From assembly GCA_011090425.1 (NCBI GenBank), contig PHGD01000027.1, positions 1 through 40,690 on the forward strand: a stretch of 40,690 bases of DNA, read 5' to 3'. Under the pieces are notes generated by a model that searched no databases, was not told the origin of the DNA, and saw nothing but the letters and a program-made list of their open reading frames with translations. The first letter of the stretch is position 1. Each line of letters begins with the position of its first letter. Positions 3,744 through 40,132 of this stretch are shown piece after piece. Origin of the DNA: Nitrospira sp. LK70 (GTDB lineage Bacteria > Nitrospirota > Nitrospiria > Nitrospirales > Nitrospiraceae). The position numbers were made by a program, and so were the translations under genes.

Positions 3744-4850
3744 ATGTATCCACGCGAATTTCGTGACGGTGCAAAAGACGGATTGGAAGCGCTCGAACCG
3801 CTCGATCCTGACAAGATCACCTCCTTCAGCGGTTTGCTTGAGGCGATGGGCAAGACAGCGTTCGGGGGACGGCATGTCGGCAAGGCGTTCGATGTGCTCT
3901 GGGCGATGATCGAGGACCCTGACTGCCAGGTTGTGCTGACCCTGTCCGGTGCGATGACGATCGCCAAGATGGGCAAGATCATTACGAGGATGATCGATGA
4001 AGGAATGGTGCAATGCATCGTTTCTACCGGGGCGTTGATGGCCCATGGCCTGAGTGAGTCGGTCGGCAAGACACATTATCGACACGATCCTTCGATGAGC
4101 GACGAAGAGCTGTTCAAGAAAGGATACAACCGCGTCTACGATACACTCGAGATGGAAGCGAATTTGAATTATGTGGAGCACGTTGTCGCCCACACCTTGA
4201 AGCGCCTCGATCATGACCGGCCGCTTTCGTCACAAGTCCTCACGAGGGAGCTGGGAAAAACGTTGGCGGAGGAAATAGACGGCGACGGAATTCTCAAGAG
4301 CGCCTACTTGAAGAAGGTACCGGTCTATATCCCCGCTTTCACTGATTCGGAAGTGGGACTGGATATGGGAACGTGGGCGATGGCTCGTGAGGTCGATCGA
4401 GCCCGATCTCAGGCAGGGCAGGGGAGAGACCTGGACATTTTACGAACCATCCATCAATCGTGCCCATCATTCAATCCGTACCTCGATCTCAACAGCTATG
4501 CCGACCATGTCCTCTCCGCTAAACGACTTGGAATTTTCACGATCGGAGGAGGTGTTCCACGGAACTGGGCGCAACAGGTCGGTCCCTATATTGAAATCGG
4601 TAATCTTCGGTTGGGTCTGAACGTAAAGCCGCCTCGGTTTTACTATGGAGTCAGAATTTGTCCCGAACCGGACTACTGGGGGGGGCTCAGCGGTTGTACC
4701 TATCAAGAAGGACTTTCTTGGGGTAAATTTGTGACACCGAAGGATGGTGGGCGATTCGCCGAGGTGTTGAGCGATGCGACGGTCGTCTGGCCCTTGTTGA
4801 TGATGGGGCTTCTCGAAAAGAAGCGAGCTGGTGTGGGTCGCCGTTCATGA
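3744..4850 (+). CDS. Deoxyhypusine synthase-like enzyme (candidate homospermidine/polyamine synthase)
   Basis: The 368-aa protein belongs to the deoxyhypusine synthase family, NAD-dependent enzymes that transfer a 4-aminobutyl group from spermidine. Visible family features are the SGAM segment near residue 68, VSTGA near 93, the glycine-rich GGGVPRNW (268-275), and the active-site strip ending SWGK (325-328), in which Lys328 corresponds to the lysine that forms the enamine/imine intermediate in eukaryotic DHS. Bacteria lack eIF5A, and bacterial DHS homologues have been reported to make homospermidine; here the nearby arginine decarboxylase and agmatinase genes would supply putrescine. The exact acceptor is inference. 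It starts 8-10 bases after AGAGGA, and its stop overlaps the next start (ATGA), indicating translational coupling to the thiol protein downstream. Confidence 0.88.
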   Translation: MYPREFRDGAKDGLEALEPLDPDKITSFSGLLEAMGKTAFGGRHVGKAFDVLWAMIEDPDCQVVLTLSGAMTIAKMGKIITRMIDEGMVQCIVSTGALMAHGLSESVGKTHYRHDPSMSDEELFKKGYNRVYDTLEMEANLNYVEHVVAHTLKRLDHDRPLSSQVLTRELGKTLAEEIDGDGILKSAYLKKVPVYIPAFTDSEVGLDMGTWAMAREVDRARSQAGQGRDLDILRTIHQSCPSFNPYLDLNSYADHVLSAKRLGIFTIGGGVPRNWAQQVGPYIEIGNLRLGLNVKPPRFYYGVRICPEPDYWGGLSGCTYQEGLSWGKFVTPKDGGRFAEVLSDATVVWPLLMMGLLEKKRAGVGRRS

Positions 4851-9853: not shown

Positions 9854-10753
9854 TCAGCCGAGCAGTTCTTGCCGGGCCGTCCGGACGAGAGCGAGGACAG
9901 CCGGATGCTTCAGCCTTCGCTCCACGGTGATCGCGTAGAAATGCTGTTTGAGCGCTTCCAGCTCTCCGACCACCTGCACCCGATATTGGCGGCAGATCTC
10001 CTTCTCGATCACCGACCCGCCGGGGAAAATCCCATATCCGTCCTGGCCGAATGCCTTTAAGGTCGCACTGTCGTCGAACTCCCCGACGATGTTCGGATGC
10101 AGCCTCTGGTCGACCAGCCATTCATCGAGCAGTCGACGAAGCGCGGCATTGGAAGTCGGGAGAAGCATGGGTGCTCCGCTTAACGACTGTGGAAACCCTC
10201 GACGATATTGTGCCGCCAGCTTGGCCGTCGCAAACAGCATCACACCCGATTCTCCCAAGGGATGACTGTAGGTGAGCTCCTGGATGCTCGATGGGGCCGG
10301 CGTGTCGGCCATCACCAGATCCAATCGATGGGCCGTCAGATCGGCCAAGAGTTGGTGAAGTTTGTCTTCCTGACAGATCAAGCGGGTCGGTCGAGACTGT
10401 TTCAGCGCTGACTTGAGCAGTCTGGTCGCCAGCGGTTTTGGGACGGCGTCCGCGATGCCGACGACCAGCCGGGCAGGATGTCCATTCGTCTGCCCCTTGA
10501 CCGAGTTCATCAGCTCTTGACCGGTCGCGAAGATGTCCTCCGCGTACTTGAACACGAGCTGGCCCATTTCCGTCAGCGCCAGGCGGCGGCCCGTTCGTAT
10601 AAAGAGCTTTTCTCCCAACGTACATTCCAAGAGGTGGATCTGTCCGCTGATCGTGGGTTGCGCCAGGCGGAGTTCTTCGCAGGCTTTCGTCACGGTCCCG
10701 TGCTTGGCGACGGACCAGAAATACAAGAGATGATGATAGTTCAACCAATCCAT
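9854..10753 (-). CDS. nhaR: LysR-family regulator, NhaR type
   Basis: A 299-aa LysR-type regulator with an N-terminal winged helix-turn-helix (about residues 5-64, containing NYHHLLYFWSVAK and AQPTISGQI) and a co-inducer-binding domain. Its closest recognisable relative is NhaR, the sodium-responsive activator of nhaA: shared patterns include YHHLLYFW, GEFDD and the C-terminal RRLKHPAV. No sodium/proton antiporter gene is in the window. It is transcribed divergently from three tandem TolC-like genes across a 164-bp gap that contains dyads, so its likely local target is its own promoter and the export locus. Ion sensing is inferred from family only. Confidence 0.85.
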   Translation of the reverse strand: MDWLNYHHLLYFWSVAKHGTVTKACEELRLAQPTISGQIHLLECTLGEKLFIRTGRRLALTEMGQLVFKYAEDIFATGQELMNSVKGQTNGHPARLVVGIADAVPKPLATRLLKSALKQSRPTRLICQEDKLHQLLADLTAHRLDLVMADTPAPSSIQELTYSHPLGESGVMLFATAKLAAQYRRGFPQSLSGAPMLLPTSNAALRRLLDEWLVDQRLHPNIVGEFDDSATLKAFGQDGYGIFPGGSVIEKEICRQYRVQVVGELEALKQHFYAITVERRLKHPAVLALVRTARQELLG

Positions 10754-10868: not shown

Positions 10869-10917
10869 GAGCGCCGTCCGCCACCCGATGTGACCCGATG
10901 TGAAAGGGGCACCCCTC

Positions 10918-12471
10918 ATGATCGCTCTAGTATTGGCCATTGTGACTCTCCTGCCAATGACCGCACTGGCGGAACCGGTCATCGACTCGCGTGCCGTGCA
11001 GATCCAGTCGACTCGAACCGCTCCACTGACCATCGATGAAGTGCTGGCTCGTATCGAGTTGACGCATCCGCTGCTTCGGGCGATGGGAGCCGAGCGAACA
11101 AAGGCCCGAGCGAAGATCCTGAAGGCACTCGGAGCTTGGGAACCGACATTTAAGAGCTATTCACAGGTTGAACGTTATACGACGTGGAATCTCACGACGG
11201 CGTTCGACATTCCGAGCCAACATACGGGAGGATATAACGACACCACGGTCCAGGTGGGGCATCCCTGGGGGTTCCGGGTCGAAAGCGGGCTCCGTAGCGG
11301 CTTTGGAGATGCCGGCAATGACAACCGCATCGCTTTTCCCTCTGAGGTCCTAGCCACTTATCACACGCAGCATTTCTACTACGGCGGGTCGTTCCACGTG
11401 CTGCGAGGCCTCATGGTCAACGAGGAGAACGCCCAGTTTCAACAGGCCGAACTCGCGGGGCCACAGGCGGAGATCAAGGTGGCGCAGAAACGGCAGGACC
11501 TCTATCTCGCCGGTGCCGTGCAGTACTGGGATTGGCAGGTTGCCGTCAAGCAGGCCGAGATTGTGAAGCGCGCCTTAGCCGTGGCCGAAGAGCGGTTCAC
11601 GCAGATCGAGGGACAGGCCAAGCGTGGGCTGGTCTCGCCGCTCGATGTGATCGAAGCCAATCAAGAAGTCCAGCGACGCCGAGAGGTAGCGATCGCCGCC
11701 CAACGAAAGGTCGAATATGAGCAGTACAAGCTGTCTCTCTTTCTCTGGGAGAACGGTGAGCCGGTGGCGCCGCGAGCGGAATGGGCACCGGAGTTCCAGG
11801 GCGAAACGCCGGTCCCGACCAATGATGAGGTCGCGGACTACAAAGTGGAGGCGAAAGAAGTTCGACCGGAAGTGCGGGATCTCTACATCGAAGCCAAGAT
11901 GAACAATATCGATATCAAGCTCGCCAAGAACCAACTGCTCCCTAAGTTGGATATTGAAGGAGGGCCACAACCTAACTTTGCGGACTGGATGGTGGGATAC
12001 CAGTATCGGGTCGGCCTGCACGCTGAGCTGCCGCTGTTCCAGCGGGAAGCGCGTGGGAAGGTCATGGCCGCGGAAGTGAGCCAGCAGCAATGGGCGTTGA
12101 AGCAGCGCTATACCGAGCAACAAGTCACCTTCGACGTGGACAACTGGCTCTCGGCCCAAGTGCGGTCCAGAGACCGAGTGACAGCGGCGACGGAAGCCCT
12201 GCGGTTGGCCAAGACCTTGGAGGAAGGTGAACGGACCCGATTCAATATGGGTTCGAGCAGCGTCCTCTTTGTGAACATCCGTGAGCGCAACGTGGTGCAA
12301 ATGGCTTACCAGCTGTATCGGGCGCAGGCCGACTACGCCGTGGCTCGTGGAGGGATGTTGTGGGCGAGAGGACTCTTGTCGAAGCCCTGGCCGACAGAGT
12401 CCTTGGCGAAGTATGGAAATCCGCTAACGGCGGCGGGGATGAACGGGTACAAACGGCCGGGGCGCGATTAA
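10918..12471 (+). CDS. TolC-like outer-membrane efflux protein, copy 1
   Basis: A 517-aa TolC/OEP-family protein with an N-terminal signal peptide (MIALVLAIVTLLPMTALA) and mature start AEPVIDS. Two repeats of long amphipathic helices follow, with family-like patterns such as KRQDLYLAGAVQYWDWQVAV (first half), ALAVAEERF and EVQRRRE (coil) and a second half ending RAQADYAVARGGMLWARG. Three such chains would form the trimeric channel linking an inner-membrane pump and adaptor to the outside. The ATG at 10918 is chosen over GTG 10900 because AAAGGGG lies between them and the signal peptide then starts cleanly, as in the two paralogues. The next copy begins 23 bases downstream. Probably activated from the divergent nhaR control region. 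Confidence 0.87.
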   Translation: MIALVLAIVTLLPMTALAEPVIDSRAVQIQSTRTAPLTIDEVLARIELTHPLLRAMGAERTKARAKILKALGAWEPTFKSYSQVERYTTWNLTTAFDIPSQHTGGYNDTTVQVGHPWGFRVESGLRSGFGDAGNDNRIAFPSEVLATYHTQHFYYGGSFHVLRGLMVNEENAQFQQAELAGPQAEIKVAQKRQDLYLAGAVQYWDWQVAVKQAEIVKRALAVAEERFTQIEGQAKRGLVSPLDVIEANQEVQRRREVAIAAQRKVEYEQYKLSLFLWENGEPVAPRAEWAPEFQGETPVPTNDEVADYKVEAKEVRPEVRDLYIEAKMNNIDIKLAKNQLLPKLDIEGGPQPNFADWMVGYQYRVGLHAELPLFQREARGKVMAAEVSQQQWALKQRYTEQQVTFDVDNWLSAQVRSRDRVTAATEALRLAKTLEEGERTRFNMGSSSVLFVNIRERNVVQMAYQLYRAQADYAVARGGMLWARGLLSKPWPTESLAKYGNPLTAAGMNGYKRPGRD

Positions 12472-12494
12472 TCCGGCACAAGGAGCCTCCGTCA

Positions 12495-14039
12495 ATGGCT
12501 GCTTTATTACTCCTGATTCTGATCTTGCTTCCCGTGACGACACTGGCGGAACCGGTGCACGATTCAAGCGCGTTGAAGGCGCAGTCCGGCCGCACCGAGC
12601 CTCTGACCATCAGCGAAGTGCTCGCCCGTATTGAATTGACGCATCCGCTACTTCGGGCGACCGGGGTAGAACGGATAGAGGCCCGGGCGAAGATCCTGAA
12701 GGCGCTCGGGGCCTGGGAACCGACCTTCAAGAACGAGACAGAGGCGGGTCGCTATCAGGTTTGGAATTTCCTGGCCCTCAGGCAGGAGCAAACCGGAGGA
12801 TTTAACGATACCACCCTTGCGGTAGGGCATCCCTGGGGCTTCCGGATCGAAGGCGGGATCCGCAACGGCTTTGGGGATCGCTTCACACAAAGCGCTACTA
12901 CTTATATCGCGGATGTACAACTCTTCTACCATACACAACAAGCGCTCTTCGCGGGGGAGGCTCACCTGCTGCGCGGCTTCATGATCAACGAAGAGTACGC
13001 AGAGTTTCAAAAGGCCGAACTCGCGGGGCCGCAGGCGGAGATCACGGTGGCGCAGAAACGGCAAGATCTCTATCTCGCCGGCGCCGTGCAGTACTGGGAT
13101 TGGCAGGTCGCGGTCAAACAGAGCGAGGTGCAGCAGCGGGCCCTGGCCGTGGCCGAAGAACGGTTCACGCAGATTGAAGGGCAGGCTAAGCGTGGCCTGG
13201 CCTCGCCGCTCGACGTCATTGAGGCCAGGCAGGAAGTGCAGCGACGCCGAGAGATAGCGATCGCCGCCCAGCGGAAGGTGGAGTATGAGCAGTACCACCT
13301 GTCCCTCTATCTCTGGGAGAACGGCGAGCCGGTGACGCCACGACCGGAATGGGCACCGGAGTTCCAGGGCGAAACACCCCTCCCGACCAAGGATGAGATC
13401 GCGGCCTATAAAGTGGAGGCGAAAGAAGATCGGCCGGAAGTGCGGGAGATCTACATCGAAGCCAAGATGAACAATATCGACATCAAGCTCGCCAAGAACC
13501 ACCTGCTCCCAAAGTTGGATTTTAAGGGAGGACAAATGCCGTACGCCTTGGACTGGGTTGTGGGAATCGGGTATCGGTTCGAAGCGAACTTTGAGATGCC
13601 GCTGTTCCAGCGGAAAGGGCGTGGGGAGGTCATGTATGCGGAAGCGGACCAGCAACAATTGGTCATGAAACAGCTGTACACCGAGCAACAAGTCAGCGTC
13701 GACGTGGATAACTGGCTCTCAGCCATCGTGAGGGCTCGTGATCGGGTGAAGGCTGCGACGGAAGCGCTGCGGTTGGCCAAGACGCTGGAGGAGGGCGAAC
13801 GGACCCGATTCAATATGGGCGCGAGCACCGTCCTCTTTGTGAACGTCCGTGAGCGCAACGTGGTGACACAAGCCTACCAGCTGTATCGGGCGCAAGCCGA
13901 CTACGCCGTGGCCCGTGGAGGGATGCTGTGGGCGAGAGGACTATTGTCGAAGCCATGGCCCCAAAGCGAATTGGTCAAGTACGGGAACCCGGTGACGGCG
14001 GCGGGTATGAACGGTTACAAACGACCGGGACGCGATTAA
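12495..14039 (+). CDS. TolC-like outer-membrane efflux protein, copy 2
   Basis: A 514-aa paralogue of copies 1 and 3, with its own signal peptide (MAALLLLILILLPVTTLA). Long stretches such as AQKRQDLYLAGAVQYWDWQV and the C-terminal YALARG-like region (ADYAVARGGMLWARGLLSK) are identical or nearly so to copy 1, whereas residues about 70-150, following GAWEPTFK, differ sharply. In TolC proteins such a mosaic suggests conserved coiled-coil/adaptor contacts with a variable barrel or loop part. AAGGAG precedes the ATG at 12495; the frame is open further upstream into copy 1, but that part has no counterpart in the paralogues. Same role as copy 1. Confidence 0.87.
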   Translation: MAALLLLILILLPVTTLAEPVHDSSALKAQSGRTEPLTISEVLARIELTHPLLRATGVERIEARAKILKALGAWEPTFKNETEAGRYQVWNFLALRQEQTGGFNDTTLAVGHPWGFRIEGGIRNGFGDRFTQSATTYIADVQLFYHTQQALFAGEAHLLRGFMINEEYAEFQKAELAGPQAEITVAQKRQDLYLAGAVQYWDWQVAVKQSEVQQRALAVAEERFTQIEGQAKRGLASPLDVIEARQEVQRRREIAIAAQRKVEYEQYHLSLYLWENGEPVTPRPEWAPEFQGETPLPTKDEIAAYKVEAKEDRPEVREIYIEAKMNNIDIKLAKNHLLPKLDFKGGQMPYALDWVVGIGYRFEANFEMPLFQRKGRGEVMYAEADQQQLVMKQLYTEQQVSVDVDNWLSAIVRARDRVKAATEALRLAKTLEEGERTRFNMGASTVLFVNVRERNVVTQAYQLYRAQADYAVARGGMLWARGLLSKPWPQSELVKYGNPVTAAGMNGYKRPGRD

Positions 14040-14064
14040 CTCGGCAACAAAGGAGCATCCTGCC

Positions 14065-15663
14065 TTGATCCTTCTCTTGCTGCTCTCGTTGATGAGTGTG
14101 CCGGCGACCGTATCGGCGGAACCGGTGATCGACTCGAGCGCCGTGCAGGCTCAGTCGACTCGCACCGCTCCTCTGACCATTGCTGAGGTGTTCGCCAGGA
14201 TTGAGTTGACCCATCCGCTGCTCCGGGTCACCGGACTGGAGCGGACGCAGGCTCGGGCGAAAATCCTGAAAGCGTTGGGTGCGTGGGAGCCGAAGCTTCG
14301 GAACGAACTCGAGTTCGACCGGTATGAATCGTATAATCTGACGAACGTTCAAGGCGCTCCGAATAAGTTGAGTGTTGCCTATAATGATACCTATCTCAAG
14401 ATCGGGCACCCCTGGGGGTGGGAGATCTTCGGCGGTATCCGTAACGGCTTTGGGGATAGAGCCACCATCACCGGTAGTGGCAACACCCTAAATCCGCCTC
14501 ATACCCCACTGAGTCCCGCTGTGGCGATCCCTCAAGACATGCAACTGTTCTATCCGCAGCAATCGGTCATCGTCGGCGGAGCGCTTAATCTCCTGCGGGG
14601 ATTCATGGTTAACGAAGAGTATGCCGGATTGCAACAGGCGGAGATCGCCGGGCCGCAAGCCGAGGTGAAGGTGGCCCAGAAACGGCAAGATCTCTATCTT
14701 GCCGGGGCCATTCAATACTGGGATTGGCAGGTCGCCGTCAAACAAGCCGATGTGGTGAGGCGTGCGCTGGCCGTCGCGGAAGAGCGCTATCGCATGGTTG
14801 AGGGGAAAGCCAAAGCCGGCGCGGTCGCTCCCATCGACGTGGTCGAAGCCCGAGAAGAAGTTCAGCGCCGTCGAGAGGCTGCCATTGCCGCGCAACGGAA
14901 GGTGGAGTATGAGCAATACAAGCTGGCGTTGTTTCTCTGGGAAAACGACGGACCGGTGACGCCGAGACCCGAATGGGCCCCGGAATTTGAGGGAGAAACG
15001 CCGGTGCCGAGTGAAGAGGAGGTAGCGGCCTTCAAAGTAGAAGCGACGGAGGATCGGCCGGAAGTACGCGATCTCTACATTGAATTCAAATTGAACAATG
15101 TCGAATTAAAACTGGCGAAGAATAGTCTGCTTCCAAAGCTAACGCTTGAGGGAGGGCCGCAGACGGGTGCTATCTATGTCTTCGGAGGGTTCGCTTACAA
15201 AGTTGGTCTTTTCTTCAGTATGCCGTTGTTCAATCGAGGTGCCCGAGGGAAGGTGCTTCATGCGGAGGCTGAGCAGGAACGATTGGTCTATAAGCAAGCC
15301 TTCATGGAGCGACAGGTCCAGATCGAGGTTGATAACTGGCTTTCAGCGATTGTGCGGGCCCGAGACCGAGTGAAGGCCTCGACAGAGGCTCTGCGCTTGG
15401 CCAAGGCCTTAGAAGAAGGCGAACGGGCTCGGTTTAACATGGGAGCAACGAGCGTGCTCTTCGTCAACCTGCGCGAGCGTGCGGTGGTCGAAGCGGCCTA
15501 TGAGGTCTACCGAGCCCAGGCCGATTATGCAGTTGCTCGTGGAGGGATGTTGTGGGCCAGAGGGGCCTTGTCGAAGTCGGTACCTGATAGTGTGCTTGCC
15601 AAGTATGGGGATCCGATCATCTCGGCCGGCTCGTCGGGGCCGAAAAAACCAGGACGGGACTGA
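14065..15663 (+). CDS. TolC-like outer-membrane efflux protein, copy 3
   Basis: The third tandem paralogue, 532 aa, starting with TTG at 14065 after a strong AAAGGAG; the signal peptide is LILLLLLSLMSVPATVSA. It shares the AEPVIDSSAVQ mature start and the KRQDLYLAGAIQYWDWQVAV core with copies 1 and 2 but is the most divergent of the three and carries a Pro/Thr-rich insertion (NTLNPPHTPLSPAV, about residues 140-153) absent from the others. Such an insertion would suit a surface loop. It ends 138 bases before the ABC gene, with which it probably forms one export locus. Confidence 0.86.
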   Translation: MILLLLLSLMSVPATVSAEPVIDSSAVQAQSTRTAPLTIAEVFARIELTHPLLRVTGLERTQARAKILKALGAWEPKLRNELEFDRYESYNLTNVQGAPNKLSVAYNDTYLKIGHPWGWEIFGGIRNGFGDRATITGSGNTLNPPHTPLSPAVAIPQDMQLFYPQQSVIVGGALNLLRGFMVNEEYAGLQQAEIAGPQAEVKVAQKRQDLYLAGAIQYWDWQVAVKQADVVRRALAVAEERYRMVEGKAKAGAVAPIDVVEAREEVQRRREAAIAAQRKVEYEQYKLALFLWENDGPVTPRPEWAPEFEGETPVPSEEEVAAFKVEATEDRPEVRDLYIEFKLNNVELKLAKNSLLPKLTLEGGPQTGAIYVFGGFAYKVGLFFSMPLFNRGARGKVLHAEAEQERLVYKQAFMERQVQIEVDNWLSAIVRARDRVKASTEALRLAKALEEGERARFNMGATSVLFVNLRERAVVEAAYEVYRAQADYAVARGGMLWARGALSKSVPDSVLAKYGDPIISAGSSGPKKPGRD

Positions 15664-15801: not shown

Positions 15802-17478
15802 ATGAAAGAACCTCAGGGCGAAAGTTATCAAGGCCTGTTCGAAGCGCTGATGAAGCAGCTGTCCGTGGCTATGCGGGCTGAGAAAAAAATCATGAGTCTG
15901 ATTTTTTCTTATGCCCTAGCCGTTGGGTTCTTTTCTCTTATCATCCCGTTGACGGTGCAGGAATTGGTCAGCACCTTTTCCTACGCGGTTCAGCCCGTCA
16001 TGATTTGGACTTTGACCGGCATTATGCTGGCAGTGCTGTTGTTTGTCGGCCTGTTCAAGACCTTCCATTTCTACGCGGTGGACGTCTTGCAACGCCGGCT
16101 CTTTGCAAGAGTCGCGGTCGCGATGGTTGAGCAACTTCCTCGGAATCGGTTTAAAGGGTCGCAGCGTGAACTTTCGAACTACTTTATCGAAACGGTCTTT
16201 ATGCAACGGGCCTTGTCCACCCTGCTCATCGACCTGATGAACGTCGTGGTGGGTGGCTCGGTCGGTATGGTCGTGCTGATCGTCTACCATCCCTATTTTC
16301 TCGTGTACAACCTTCTGCTCATGGCCGGGTTCGGAGTCACGTTTTTCGTGCTCTCTCGTGGTGCACTGAAGACGACTCTCGCCATGTCTCATGCGAAGTA
16401 CGATGTCTTCAATTGGATTCAAGATATTTCGCGGAATTCCTTGCAGTTGAAGGCTACCGACAGCCGCCCATTTCTCATCCAGAAGACGAATGACCTTGTC
16501 ACCCACTATGTCGAAACTCGAAAAGCCCGATTTGTTGTCCTCGTGCGGCAATATATTGGTTCGGTGACGGGGCAAGCAGTTGCACAATCTGGTGCTCTCG
16601 CCCTCTCAGCTTGGCTTATGGCATCGGGGCAGATGACTCTGGGACAATTGGTCGCTGTTCAGGCGGTCGTCGGCGCACTCATCCTCAATTTTGATTCCCT
16701 CATCAAAAACATGGGATATGTGTACTATTTCTTCACGTCGCTGAGACACCTCGATGAGGTCTTTAGCCAAGATCAAGATTATGTCGCACCCGAATCCGCC
16801 GTAGCACTTCCCAAGCATTTGACTCAAGGGATCCGCATCACCTGCAAAGGCGTGAGTTTGATTCGCGGGGGAGTGTCCGTATTCGATGGATTCAACCTGG
16901 AAGTAGCACCGGGCGAAAAGCTCGGTATCTACGCGCGAACCACGGGAGCTAAAACTGCTTTGGCTAGAGTGTTGGGCGGCCTTGAACCTCCGACCAATGG
17001 TGTCGTTCAGTACAATGGCGTTGATCTTCGGTATATCGAGCCTAATGCCATCAACCAAACCCGCAGTGTCATGATCGACTCTCAGTTGTCGCTGATCAAG
17101 GGAACGATAGAAGAAAATATCGTCATGGGACGATCCTATGTCACCTATGATGACCTCAACTGGGCTCTCCGATTCACCGAGCTCGAGGAAGATGTCGAAA
17201 GCTTGCCGCGCGGCGTGAAGTCCGAGATCTCCTCGCTGGGAGAATCACTTTCTCCGACCCACATTGTTCAGATTCTCCTGGCCAGGGCGATTCTAGGGCA
17301 TCCGCAAGTTCTCATATTTGACGGCTTGATTCACTCGCTCGAGCCATCGTTGCGCGAGCGTGTACTGCGTCGGCTCTGCTCTAAAGATGAAACATGGTCT
17401 GTGATCTTTGTGTCGACGGATCCCAATCTTACGGATCATGCCGATCGCCGCATTATGCTGCATCATGCCCATGCGTAA
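15802..17478 (+). CDS. ABC exporter half-transporter with degenerate nucleotide-binding domain
   Basis: The 558-aa protein has a six-helix exporter-type membrane domain (about residues 28-310) and a C-terminal nucleotide-binding domain (about 343-555) of the HlyB/MsbA fold. Catalytic motifs are eroded: Walker A reads ARTTGAKT (378-385) instead of GxxGxGKT, the signature is LSPTH (483-487) instead of LSGGQ, Walker B ends Asp507-Gly508 where the catalytic Glu should be, the switch His is Thr539, and the Q-loop lacks its Gln in register. The fold is otherwise kept (GTIEENI, LPRGV, ARAIL), and the frame is intact over 558 codons, so it is not a decaying pseudogene. It probably acts as a membrane scaffold, a partner in a heterodimer, or uses another energy source. 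Between TolC and HlyD genes, it is likely the inner-membrane part of an export system. Confidence 0.85.
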   Translation: MKEPQGESYQGLFEALMKQLSVAMRAEKKIMSLIFSYALAVGFFSLIIPLTVQELVSTFSYAVQPVMIWTLTGIMLAVLLFVGLFKTFHFYAVDVLQRRLFARVAVAMVEQLPRNRFKGSQRELSNYFIETVFMQRALSTLLIDLMNVVVGGSVGMVVLIVYHPYFLVYNLLLMAGFGVTFFVLSRGALKTTLAMSHAKYDVFNWIQDISRNSLQLKATDSRPFLIQKTNDLVTHYVETRKARFVVLVRQYIGSVTGQAVAQSGALALSAWLMASGQMTLGQLVAVQAVVGALILNFDSLIKNMGYVYYFFTSLRHLDEVFSQDQDYVAPESAVALPKHLTQGIRITCKGVSLIRGGVSVFDGFNLEVAPGEKLGIYARTTGAKTALARVLGGLEPPTNGVVQYNGVDLRYIEPNAINQTRSVMIDSQLSLIKGTIEENIVMGRSYVTYDDLNWALRFTELEEDVESLPRGVKSEISSLGESLSPTHIVQILLARAILGHPQVLIFDGLIHSLEPSLRERVLRRLCSKDETWSVIFVSTDPNLTDHADRRIMLHHAHA

Positions 17479-17523
17479 ACGGGTGGAATGGTATAACAAC
17501 ACCGGTAAATGAATGGAGGCTCC

Positions 17524-18969
17524 ATGGCTAGCCTAGGTGGCGGTGTCGAAGGCAGCGGGGAACGTGCGCTGGTCAAGCGAGGGGTGGGCTTGGCAGCGAT
17601 CACCATCGAACAAGGGCCCACATTGGCCAAGTTGCCATGCTGGGAAGCGGTACAGATTCCAGGAGGAATGTTCACGGCATCTCGTGCCATCCTGACAACC
17701 CTCCTGCTCTTTCTGATCGTTCTGGAGTTCGTCCCATGGACACAGACGATATCTGCGAATGGGAAGGTTTCTGCCTATACTCCCTACGACCGACCGCAGA
17801 AGATTGAGTCCCGGATTACGGGCCGTGTCAAGGCATGGCATATTTTTGAAGGAGTTAAGGTTAAGAAAGGCGAGCTCATCGGCGAACTCGAGGACTATGA
17901 CCCGACCTTTATGGCTCCTGAGATCCTCCCTCTCTTCGAACAGCGTAAGGTAGCCCAGGAACAAACGCGCCAAGCGGCCTTGGCGAGGGCGGACCAGCTC
18001 AACAAGAGAATTGCCGAGATGAAGAAACTGGTCCAAGCCGCCGTTCCCTCGGCCGAGGCCAGAGTGGTGGAAGCTGACAATAAAGTGCGGGAAGCGCAAC
18101 AGAAGGTCGAACAGCTAAAGATCGACGTGGTCACCGCACAACTCAATGTCGACCGGCATCGGCAACTTGTCAGGGACGGGCTCGTTTCCCAACGGGAACT
18201 CGAGCTAACGATTCAGACGGAAATCAGCACAAAGGCTGGATTGCAAGCAGCACAGGCGGGCCTGTTGGCGGCCGAGCAGGGTCGGTCCGCCTTGAGCTTT
18301 GGACGTGATCAAATCACCGCGGATGTGCAGCAACGGCTGATGGAGGCCATCGCACAACGCGATAATGCGGTCGCGGAAGCTGCCAAGGCGACGGAGGCGT
18401 TGGCGGATATTCAGTACCGGCAACAGGGGGTCCAACAACGGATCGAGGCCGCCCGTCTCATCGCTCCGATGGACGGAACGGTGGTCAAAATGGCTAGGGT
18501 CGGTGTCAACGAGACCGTCAGACAGGGAGATAATTTGGTCACTATTTCCCCTCTGGCCACCGATCCAGCCATCGAAATGGTGGCCGAAGGGTTGGATTCT
18601 CCGCTTTTGAAACCTGGCCGGAAGGTTCGAATCTTGTTTTTTGGAGTGCCGGCTATCCCGTTGCCCGCCTGGCCTTCATTGATGGCGGGGACTCGTGGGG
18701 GGGTCATCAAGGTGGTCGACCAGATCGACGATGGAAAAGGAAATTATCGGTTCTGGGTCGTTCCTGACCCGGATGATCCTCAACCATGGCCTGAGCAGGC
18801 TCAGGTGAGGCAGGGCACAAAAGTATTGGGTTGGGTGGTCATGAATCGTGTCCCTCTTTGGTATGAACTGTGGCGGCGCTTTAACTTCTTCCCGCCTGAT
18901 TATATTGAACGGTCGCCGAGTGTGTTTGAGATGTTTGCGCCCAAGGTGGCGGCCCCGGGCGGTAAGTAG
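17524..18969 (+). CDS. HlyD/membrane-fusion adaptor protein
   Basis: A 481-aa periplasmic adaptor with one membrane anchor (ILTTLLLFLIVLEFV, about residues 55-70). After the anchor come the first lipoyl half-motif (GRVKAWHIFEGVKVKKGELI), a long alpha-helical hairpin rich in Ala, Gln and Glu (about 135-310), the second lipoyl half (APMDGTVVKMARVGVNETV) and a beta-barrel domain. Such proteins bridge an inner-membrane pump to a TolC channel. The ATG at 17524 has GGAGG four bases upstream; the ATG at 17509 would add five residues with no ribosome-binding site. It lies 45 bases after the degenerate ABC gene, consistent with one operon. Confidence 0.87.
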   Translation: MASLGGGVEGSGERALVKRGVGLAAITIEQGPTLAKLPCWEAVQIPGGMFTASRAILTTLLLFLIVLEFVPWTQTISANGKVSAYTPYDRPQKIESRITGRVKAWHIFEGVKVKKGELIGELEDYDPTFMAPEILPLFEQRKVAQEQTRQAALARADQLNKRIAEMKKLVQAAVPSAEARVVEADNKVREAQQKVEQLKIDVVTAQLNVDRHRQLVRDGLVSQRELELTIQTEISTKAGLQAAQAGLLAAEQGRSALSFGRDQITADVQQRLMEAIAQRDNAVAEAAKATEALADIQYRQQGVQQRIEAARLIAPMDGTVVKMARVGVNETVRQGDNLVTISPLATDPAIEMVAEGLDSPLLKPGRKVRILFFGVPAIPLPAWPSLMAGTRGGVIKVVDQIDDGKGNYRFWVVPDPDDPQPWPEQAQVRQGTKVLGWVVMNRVPLWYELWRRFNFFPPDYIERSPSVFEMFAPKVAAPGGK

Positions 18970-38312: not shown

Positions 38313-40043
38313 TCAAATGGCCAGCTCATTCAAACGGATGGTATAGAGATAGTGGTACAGCCCGTTGCGGGCCATCAATTGGGTGTGGGTGCCTTCTTCC
38401 ACCAACTTCCCCTTGTCTAAGACCAGAATTCGGTCGGCACCTTGGATGGTCGACAGTCGGTGCGCGACGACGAAGGTCGTGCGACCCTCCATGAGGCGTT
38501 GAAGGGCTTCCTGAACCAGCCGTTCCGATTCGGTGTCCAGCGATGAGGTCGCTTCGTCCAGTAACAAAATGCGAGGATTCTTCAAGATCGCCCGAGCGAT
38601 CGCAATCCGCTGACGCTGTCCGCCTGAGAGGTTGACCCCCTTCTCGCCGACCAGAGTTTGATACCCGTCCGGCAAGCCCGTGATGAAGTCATGTGCATGA
38701 GCAGCTTGGCTTGCTTCCAATACCGCGGCTTCATTCGCCGCCATATTGCCGTAGCGAATGTTGGTGAGGATGGTACCCCCAAAAAGGATCGTTTCTTGTG
38801 GGACGAGCGCAATCTGTCGGTACCAACTCTCAACGGCCACCTGGCGTAAGTCTTTGCCGTCGATCGTGATGCGACCTTCCGTCGGATCGTAGAAGCGGTG
38901 AAGCAGGTTGATCACGGTGGTCTTGCCGGCGCCGGTCGGTCCGACTAACGCGACTAGTTCGCCCGACTTGGCTTCGAACGACAGGTTCGAGAGCACCGGA
39001 TGACGAGTATCGTAGCTGAAGCTGACGTTTTCCACCCGCACATGACCATCGACGGTTTCCAGCGTCTGGGCATCGGGTCGATCACAAATGTCCGGCTGAG
39101 CATCCAGAATTTCGAAGACCCGCTGCGTCGCTCCTTGTGCCTCCTTGATCTGCGCAAAGACGCGGGCTGCCGAACTGAAGGGGCCGATCAAGATGCCGGC
39201 GAACAAGACGAAGGCGAAGAGATCCCCGGGCGTGACGACCCCGTCGATGACCTGTCTGCCTCCGTACCACAACACCGCCGTTGCCGATGAGAAGGTCAGG
39301 AGGCTGATCACAGGAATGAAGACGGCCATGATGGCGGCACGACGGAGTATGAGATGAAGCGTGTGATCGACCTGATCCGCGAAGCGGTCCTTTTCCCTTT
39401 GCGCCTGGACGAAGGACTTGACGATGCGAATGCCGGAAATCACTTCTTCGACGAGGATGCTGAGTACGGCTGTCTGGTCTTGAATCGAGGTAGAAAGGGA
39501 TTTCAACCGGCGACCGAATACCTTGGCGACCAGAACCAGTAATGGGAGCAGGATGAGGATCAGGAGGCAGAGCCGCCAATTCATCATGAGCAGGAACGTG
39601 ATGCCCCCGACGAACGTCACAAGTTGTTTGACCCCGTCGATAGGGGCTTCCGTCACGATGGATTGGATCACCGTCACGTCGGTCATCAATCGGGAGAGCA
39701 GTTCTCCCGTACGGCGCCGAGCAAAGAAGCTGACCGTCAACGTCTGCAGGTGGCCGAAGAGATGCTTGCGGAAGTCGGCGACGACTTCCTGAGAGACCCA
39801 TGCCGTCAGGTAACTATGACCCATCGAGCAGAACCCCTGTAGGATCACCAGGACCAGGAACAAGCCGATCGACTGCGTCATCCTATCGGCATCGTGCTGA
39901 ACTGTGATGATATCCCAGAGGGTGCCGGCCAACCGAACCAAAGCGAGATTGATGAGTGCAACCCCGCTCACCAAGAGCCCGGCCAGCATCAAACGCGCTA
40001 AATAAGGACGCACGAACGGGAGAAATCTTTTGAAGATCGACAT
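38313..40043 (-). CDS. MsbA-type ABC exporter half-transporter (intact)
   Basis: The 576-aa protein has a six-helix exporter domain (about 1-310) and a complete nucleotide-binding domain: Walker A GPTGAGKTT, Q-loop VPQETILF, signature LSGGQRQRIAIARA, Walker B ILLLDEATSSLD and switch His in VVAHRLSTI. It would act as a homodimer flipping lipid-linked or drug substrates across the inner membrane; the family includes MsbA and multidrug exporters. All catalytic residues are present, in contrast to the ABC protein at 15.8 kb. It lies downstream of the two small genes at 40.1-40.5 kb and could be co-transcribed. Confidence 0.93.
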   Translation of the reverse strand: MSIFKRFLPFVRPYLARLMLAGLLVSGVALINLALVRLAGTLWDIITVQHDADRMTQSIGLFLVLVILQGFCSMGHSYLTAWVSQEVVADFRKHLFGHLQTLTVSFFARRRTGELLSRLMTDVTVIQSIVTEAPIDGVKQLVTFVGGITFLLMMNWRLCLLILILLPLLVLVAKVFGRRLKSLSTSIQDQTAVLSILVEEVISGIRIVKSFVQAQREKDRFADQVDHTLHLILRRAAIMAVFIPVISLLTFSSATAVLWYGGRQVIDGVVTPGDLFAFVLFAGILIGPFSSAARVFAQIKEAQGATQRVFEILDAQPDICDRPDAQTLETVDGHVRVENVSFSYDTRHPVLSNLSFEAKSGELVALVGPTGAGKTTVINLLHRFYDPTEGRITIDGKDLRQVAVESWYRQIALVPQETILFGGTILTNIRYGNMAANEAAVLEASQAAHAHDFITGLPDGYQTLVGEKGVNLSGGQRQRIAIARAILKNPRILLLDEATSSLDTESERLVQEALQRLMEGRTTFVVAHRLSTIQGADRILVLDKGKLVEEGTHTQLMARNGLYHYLYTIRLNELAI

Positions 40044-40132
40044 CGTGCTCAGGCGCTGTGATCGGACACGAGATCGTGTTCCGTTCTACGGCTACGGTGA
40101 AACAATAGGCTGACGTGGATGAGATGAAGCGA

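Follow-up and report, generated by a model that had tools for sequence, protein, structure and literature searches.

The gene at 15802–17478 on the forward strand of the window, which is the whole 40,690-nucleotide stretch of Nitrospira sp. LK70 DNA analysed here, probably codes for a subunit with a retired ATPase that sits in the inner membrane as part of a HlyD/TolC-type tripartite exporter. Judged from sequence comparisons and genomic context, this reading has a probability of about two in three, and the subunit would act either as an ion-coupled transporter or as a passive gate or scaffold. A sequence-only reading of the same DNA had proposed a retained exporter with a non-hydrolysing ATPase domain, and the conservation and dN/dS values of the orthologous genes agree with that proposal. 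The features of the window on which the argument draws are as follows.

9854..10753, reverse strand: NhaR-type LysR regulator, divergent from the operon (NF008284, 243 bits against a cut-off of 219)
10900..12471, forward strand: TolC-type outer-membrane channel OEP1; start codon uncertain
12498..14039, forward strand: TolC-type outer-membrane channel OEP2; start codon uncertain
14065..15663, forward strand: TolC-type outer-membrane channel OEP3
15802..17478, forward strand: putative pseudo-ATPase ABC-exporter half, with a six-helix membrane domain at about residues 12-321 and a degenerate ATPase domain (NBD) at about residues 340-558
16231..16233, forward strand: Asp144 in TM3, an acidic residue conserved in the family's membrane domain and invariant in Nitrospira
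16660..16662, forward strand: position 287 in TM6, Glu in 48/54 family members, Gln in the window protein and in 33/37 Nitrospira orthologues
16933..16956, forward strand: degenerate Walker A ARTTGAKT, residues 378-385, with three glycines replaced and Lys384 and Thr385 kept
17077..17085, forward strand: Q-loop DSQ, residues 426-428, invariant in 37 Nitrospira orthologues, with a one-residue insertion relative to canonical exporters
17248..17262, forward strand: degenerate signature LSPTH, residues 483-487
17308..17325, forward strand: Walker B VLIFDG, residues 503-508, with Asp507 kept and an invariant Gly508 in place of the catalytic Glu
17416..17418, forward strand: switch-His position, Thr539 within an invariant STDP (residues 538-541)
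17509..18969, forward strand: HlyD-type periplasmic adaptor of 486 aa, directly downstream; conserved partner

The open reading frame is intact, as had been stated, running from the ATG at 15802 through 558 codons to a stop that ends at 17478. Motifs were assigned after aligning the protein with intact exporters from this genome and elsewhere; the alignment also gives HSLEP, rather than a normal motif, as the D-loop. When compared with what defines a functional ATP site, namely a Walker A of the form GxxGxGK[ST], an LSGGQ signature, the Asp-Glu of Walker B and the switch His, the window protein falls short, and its surviving ATP-site residues are Lys384, Thr385, Gln428 and Asp507. The initial statement that the motifs are all altered was therefore slightly too strong: the P-loop glycines, the signature, the Glu and the His are lost, but Gln428 of the Q-loop is retained, displaced by the one-residue insertion. 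As a control, five further ABC exporters encoded in this genome (L002–L006, which include the MsbA-like gene of the window) retain the Walker A Lys, the Walker B Asp-Glu and the switch His. Profile searches recognise the window protein only weakly as an ABC exporter, with a best NCBIfam score of 119.5 bits against a cut-off of 853; the Pfam profile PF00005 matches it with an E of 6e-9. The opinion that the loss of nearly all motifs is unusual was right, and the family context proves stranger still.

The AlphaFold model of the window protein (mean pLDDT 79) is that of a complete ABC-exporter half, in which six long TM helices are followed by an NBD, the arrangement of the ABC exporter (type IV fold) superfamily. 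Its closest solved chain is HlyB (8dck_A), with a Z of 28.9 and an rmsd of 2.7 Å over 532 residues. The description of the membrane domain as normal thus holds for the predicted fold but not for the sequence, which is too divergent for the Pfam profile ABC_membrane: a Pfam profile search gave no match of ABC_membrane to the window protein, yet this profile does match the relatives from Bacteroidota and Pseudomonadota.

The placement of the gene between TolC-like and HlyD genes was also correctly read, with OEP3 upstream and the HlyD-type adaptor directly downstream, so that an ABC protein, a HlyD-type adaptor and a TolC-type channel occur together as in a tripartite system. By sequence alone, what is missing from this set is an ATP-energised inner-membrane transporter, the catalytic residues being absent. 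Three tandem TolC-type genes (10900–15663 of the window; mutual identity 65–74%) precede the single ABC-HlyD pair, and the genes downstream with the HlyD adaptor are taken to be purE and purK. No RTX-type substrate gene was noticed adjoining the window gene. An NhaR-like LysR gene also adjoins a Pseudomonadota member of the family (L183), whereas for a member from Bacteroidota (L163) the upstream gene is a TetR gene. Farther off in the window, at 3744–4850 on the forward strand, lies a deoxyhypusine synthase family gene (PF01916, E 1e-73), here in a bacterium.

Across three phyla, the operons of the family are ordered [OEP]-ABC-HlyD, HlyD-OEP-ABC or ABC-HlyD-OEP, each with a single ABC gene. 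A partner ABC gene next door was looked for and rejected, as no intact ABC gene stands beside a family gene in the loci examined; where a second ABC gene occurs, it is a degenerate tandem copy. In two such loci (L193, 5823–9410, and L194, 5195–8736), tandem ABC genes of the family lie beside OEP, HlyD and purEK, and both copies are degenerate; these pairs possibly form a heterodimer of two dead halves. A SecA-based energiser, as described for loci without an ABC homologue (PMC4452313), was likewise rejected, none having been noticed among the neighbours.

Selection on the operon was estimated from 37 Nitrospira orthologues by pairwise Nei-Gojobori dN/dS, using pairs with 0.1<dS<1.2. The median for the NBD was 0.039 (178 pairs; maximum pairwise 0.095), and that for the membrane domain was higher, at 0.081. 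In the same comparison HlyD gave 0.044, and OEP1 and OEP3, two of the three channels, evolve faster than either the ABC protein or HlyD, with values of 0.155–0.20. Ala378, Thr380, Ala383, Lys384, Asp426-Ser427-Gln428, Asp507-Gly508 and Ser538-Thr539-Asp540-Pro541 are invariant in 37/37 orthologues, and nearly all the codons of these residues, including those of Gly508, Ala378, Ala383 and Thr539, vary synonymously. Together, the invariant residues, their variable codons and the low dN/dS therefore indicate that the dead domain is a maintained pseudo-ATPase with new invariant residues of its own. As far as orthologue comparisons can reveal selection, they show that strong purifying selection holds both the fold of the NBD and its new residue set. 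Two outcomes had been named in advance as speaking against a retained protein, a loss confined to a single strain and a dN/dS near 1; instead, conservation of the altered residues extends through the genus and the family, and the ratio for the NBD lies far below 1. Furthermore, because the NBD is more conserved than the membrane domain, it evidently does something in Nitrospira, and relatives that lack an NBD may hence work differently.

The family to which the window protein belongs is widespread. Matches at E<=1e-40 occur in 39 of 59 relatives, and matches at E<=1e-25 in 78 of 295 sampled Nitrospirota, all of them in the same taxonomic family or in one sister family of the same order; Nitrospirota genomes with the family often hold two to four paralogues. 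The matches in Bacteroidota come from 62 of 247 genomes, and among 299 Pseudomonadota genomes there are five clear degenerate members. SARO_RS19820, from the cultured Novosphingobium aromaticivorans DSM 12444, is a family member with its motifs erased, and is followed by HlyD and TolC genes. In a membrane-domain tree, built under one model and with a small outgroup, the whole family forms one clade against 16 canonical exporters (UFBoot 95). The NBD tree gives the family weak support (59), which is expected since the NBD sequence has decayed.

Within this clade, the decay of the ATP site is graded. The Walker A Lys, the Walker B Asp and Glu and the switch His are present in 16/16 canonical exporters. 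Bacteroidota group A (n=8) keeps Lys in 8, Glu in 7 and His in 6, with an altered signature, and group B (n=16) keeps Lys in 15, Glu in 2 and His in none. In Nitrospirota family f1 (n=18), 16 members have Lys, none has Glu, the residue always being Gly, and none has His; Nitrospirota family f3 (n=3) has lost Lys, Glu and His throughout, and the Pseudomonadota members (n=5) lack all four residues, Walker B Asp included. Position 508 is Gly in 21/21 aligned NBD-bearing Nitrospirota representatives, and in sister Nitrospirota lineages (L103, L105, L107) even the Walker A Lys has gone, with the operon kept. The Bacteroidota group A proteins (L126–L143, L185–L191) carry an N-terminal extension, and their ATPase motifs are almost intact except for the signature and the Q-loop; this group is likely the least-decayed stage. 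One exporter of the same genome as the window gene (L004, G000:C147) combines a long N-terminal region with intact Walker motifs, and the membrane-domain tree puts it next to the family. It was treated as canonical because its Walker motifs are kept and its branch is long, and it is a candidate relative or partner of the degenerate family.

Elsewhere in the family, the ATPase domain is missing altogether. In one Bacteroidota order a membrane-domain-only form of 333–371 codons is found in 46 of 72 family-bearing genomes (47 places) and the full-length form in 26 genomes, and in Nitrospirota family f3 the membrane-domain-only form occurs in three genomes (G056, G1019, G054). The Bacteroidota genes have HlyD directly downstream, and the open frame of HlyD starts 11–104 nt before their stop codon (11–68 nt in the 30 cases read in detail), so that no NBD lies between the two. 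The same overlap rules out a frameshift or truncation artefact for these genes, which have a dN/dS of 0.028 (30 sequences, 19 usable pairs). For the Nitrospirota forms (L111/L112), tblastn gave no convincing NBD remnant in the stretch of downstream DNA covered. As the membrane-domain-only groups fall apart in the tree, with L111/L112 lying within Nitrospirota family f3 (UFBoot 99) and L160/L161 within Bacteroidota group B (100), the gene comparisons show loss of the whole NBD in at least two lineages. In coupling helix 2, the NBD-bearing members compared keep Lys217, which the membrane-domain-only forms have lost; as this residue is retained with the NBD and lost without it, pseudo-NBD and membrane domain would seem to interact still.

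Because the unit of membrane domain, HlyD and channel persists with its ATPase dead or absent, hydrolysis by the family protein is apparently not needed by this unit. The window protein would form a homodimer, or a dimer of two dead halves where tandem copies occur, and its membrane domain would dock HlyD and pass or gate substrate into the HlyD-OEP conduit without ATP hydrolysis. The dead NBDs could keep the two halves joined or regulate the dimer; perhaps they bind a nucleotide statically, or act as a sensor that binds nucleotide or another ligand. Residual ATP binding is conceivable because Lys384, Thr385, Gln428 and Asp507 remain, and even slow hydrolysis may occur. If transport is uphill, an ion gradient would be its most likely source of energy, by the precedent of SbmA and of LmrA and MsbA without their NBDs; otherwise, the protein would be a gated passive conduit. 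Ion-coupled transport, which is proposed by analogy with these systems, can be put forward only tentatively, and a passive gate or scaffold is nearly as likely. The Glu at position 287 of TM6 speaks for ion coupling in that it is family-specific and not typical of the 16 canonical exporters compared, but the Gln found there in 33/37 Nitrospira orthologues speaks against it in the clade of the window protein. All four membrane-domain-only representatives that were compared have Glu at this position. The NhaR regulator, and the Na+/H+ exchanger that adjoins some paralogues, are in keeping with an ion theme but are no proof of it. A bolder version of this reading is rather unlikely: that a new ABC-fold lineage in three phyla has turned ATP-independent with visible intermediates and independently of SbmA, its export operons encoding an ion-driven tripartite pump, and its paralogues either a receptor that signals through a sensor kinase or a protein that works with a Na+/H+ exchanger.

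An export role cannot be assumed for the whole family, since some Nitrospirota paralogues are found without HlyD or OEP. In eight Nitrospirota loci (L102, L104, L169, L170, L253, L254, L255, L256), a PAS-HisKA-HATPase sensor kinase gene comes immediately after the degenerate ABC gene, and an NtrC-type response regulator comes next in 7/8 (absent from L254); HlyD and OEP are absent from these loci, whose ABC protein is possibly an ABC-fold receptor of a two-component system. Other degenerate paralogues adjoin a Na_H_Exchanger gene (PF00999; L108, L109, L250, L252, and as a fragment in L257), and one has an MFS gene as its neighbour (L251). A family-2 glycosyltransferase lies downstream of the degenerate paralogue in L245–L250, L109 and L110, with a PMT/ArnT-like or LAB_N protein further on where checked (L245, L109); these paralogues could possibly be ATP-independent lipid-sugar flippases. 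Taken together, the paralogue neighbourhoods suggest receptor or lipid-flipping roles.

These paralogues bear on a different interpretation of the window protein itself, namely that it is a receptor or regulatory ABC protein like SUR1, and not a conduit, which senses a ligand or ion state and controls HlyD and OEP, a sensor kinase or a Na+/H+ exchanger. The eight sensor-kinase loci, seven with an NtrC-type regulator, the exchanger genes beside L108, L109, L250 and L252, the divergent NhaR-type regulator of the window operon, and new invariant NBD motifs (DSQ, xDG, DP) that resemble a selected site are all consistent with such a role. However, the window gene and its close relatives sit with HlyD and OEP, which are standard export partners, and the membrane-domain-only members found with the same partners suggest that the membrane domain is the essential part, so that a SUR1-like function is improbable here. 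At the other extreme, a recent or ongoing pseudogene is scarcely credible. Almost all catalytic residues are lost, and in a few members elsewhere in the family the frame is split or interrupted by a stop (L104, L168), but the frames of nearly all matches are intact, and pseudogene status is ruled out by the dN/dS of the NBD, at most 0.095 in any pair, and by the conservation of the substituted residues.

The remaining interpretations retain ATP as the energy source. A competent ABC half from elsewhere might hydrolyse it in a heterodimer, and the MsbA-like exporter at 38316–40085 on the reverse strand had been put forward in the sequence-only reading as such a half. In known heterodimers such as TM287/288 and TmrAB, the lesions are split so that one consensus site survives. 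In the window protein, the Walker motifs and the signature are lost on the same half, and from the architecture of the site a consensus composite site should be impossible with any partner. Exporters with one degenerate site are nevertheless common (PMC7756269), the genome encodes at least five further exporters whose Walker and Glu motifs are intact, and the window clade retains the Walker A Lys and the Walker B Asp. Against these points, no second, intact ABC gene was found beside the gene in the loci examined, the tandem pairs (L193, L194) are degenerate in both copies, and the membrane-domain-only relatives cannot join an NBD dimer. A heterodimer with any competent half is therefore quite improbable, and the particular pairing proposed earlier is unlikely, as the MsbA-like gene lies 21 kb away on the opposite strand, both sides of the site are lost, and relatives without an NBD exist. 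Alternatively, export could still be driven by ATP at a non-canonical but working site, in which other residues replace the Glu and the His. The window clade still has Lys384, Asp507 and Gln428, and Bacteroidota group A keeps Walker A, the Asp-Glu and mostly the switch His, yet three P-loop glycines, the signature, the Glu and the His are all gone from the window protein, the Lys is lost in L103, L105 and L107 although the operon stays, and the domain has been discarded in two lineages, which makes a working site very improbable.

The family of the window protein is of interest because ATP hydrolysis defines ABC transporters, and function of the membrane domain alone has rested on LmrA-MD, MsbA-MD and the importer SbmA. 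The family amounts to a natural experiment, in which nearly intact, half-broken, dead and absent ATPase domains are found on one membrane domain in the same type of HlyD/TolC operon. Its graded members make ATP-free function directly testable and model how a primary transporter becomes something else. They also call for caution, since annotations as "ABC transporter ATP-binding protein" in these three phyla may cover proteins that do not use ATP. Pseudo-ATPase halves and NBD-less ABC-like importers are already known; a three-phylum, HlyD/TolC-linked family with graded, repeated ATPase loss was not found described in the open-access literature searched.

Among known systems, HlyB/HlyD/TolC type 1 secretion (8dck) offers the best structural match and the same ABC-HlyD-OEP partnership, but HlyB actively hydrolyses ATP and carries a C39-like N-terminal domain, whereas the window protein lacks both the catalytic residues and an N-terminal domain. 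Heterodimeric exporters such as TM287/288 and TmrAB (PMC7756269) similarly combine degenerate NBD residues with an otherwise complete exporter, but they have one consensus site per dimer, whereas the window half has lost both the Walker and the signature sides and has no partner gene; neither a partner half alongside nor one complete consensus site per dimer was found. The SecA_DEAD T1SS-like loci (PMC4452313) are also HlyD/OEP-type export loci without an active ABC ATPase, but they contain a SecA-type ATPase together with a Peptidase_M50-like protein and do not retain the ABC fold. The natural precedent for an ABC-exporter membrane domain that works without an NBD and without ATP is SbmA/BacA, the SLiPTs, which are proton-coupled peptide transporters (PMC13316013). 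Unlike the window family, SLiPTs are importers derived from YddA-like ABC proteins; they have two additional helices and a glutamate ladder, and they lack coupling helices (PMC13316013). The window family differs from them in its partial match to Pfam ABC_membrane, its HlyD/OEP partners and the NBD-decay intermediates still present. The window protein itself has an NBD and a conserved Lys217 in coupling helix 2, in contrast to the absence of both NBD and coupling helices in SbmA/BacA; the acidic candidates to set beside the SbmA glutamate ladder are Asp144 and, in most members, Glu287, which is Gln287 in the window clade. Finally, ion-coupled transport has been reported for the exporter membrane domains LmrA-MD (PMC6155054) and MsbA-MD (PMC4979069) without their NBDs; these are laboratory truncations, whereas in the window family the NBD has been cut away by evolution, at least twice and in separate lineages.
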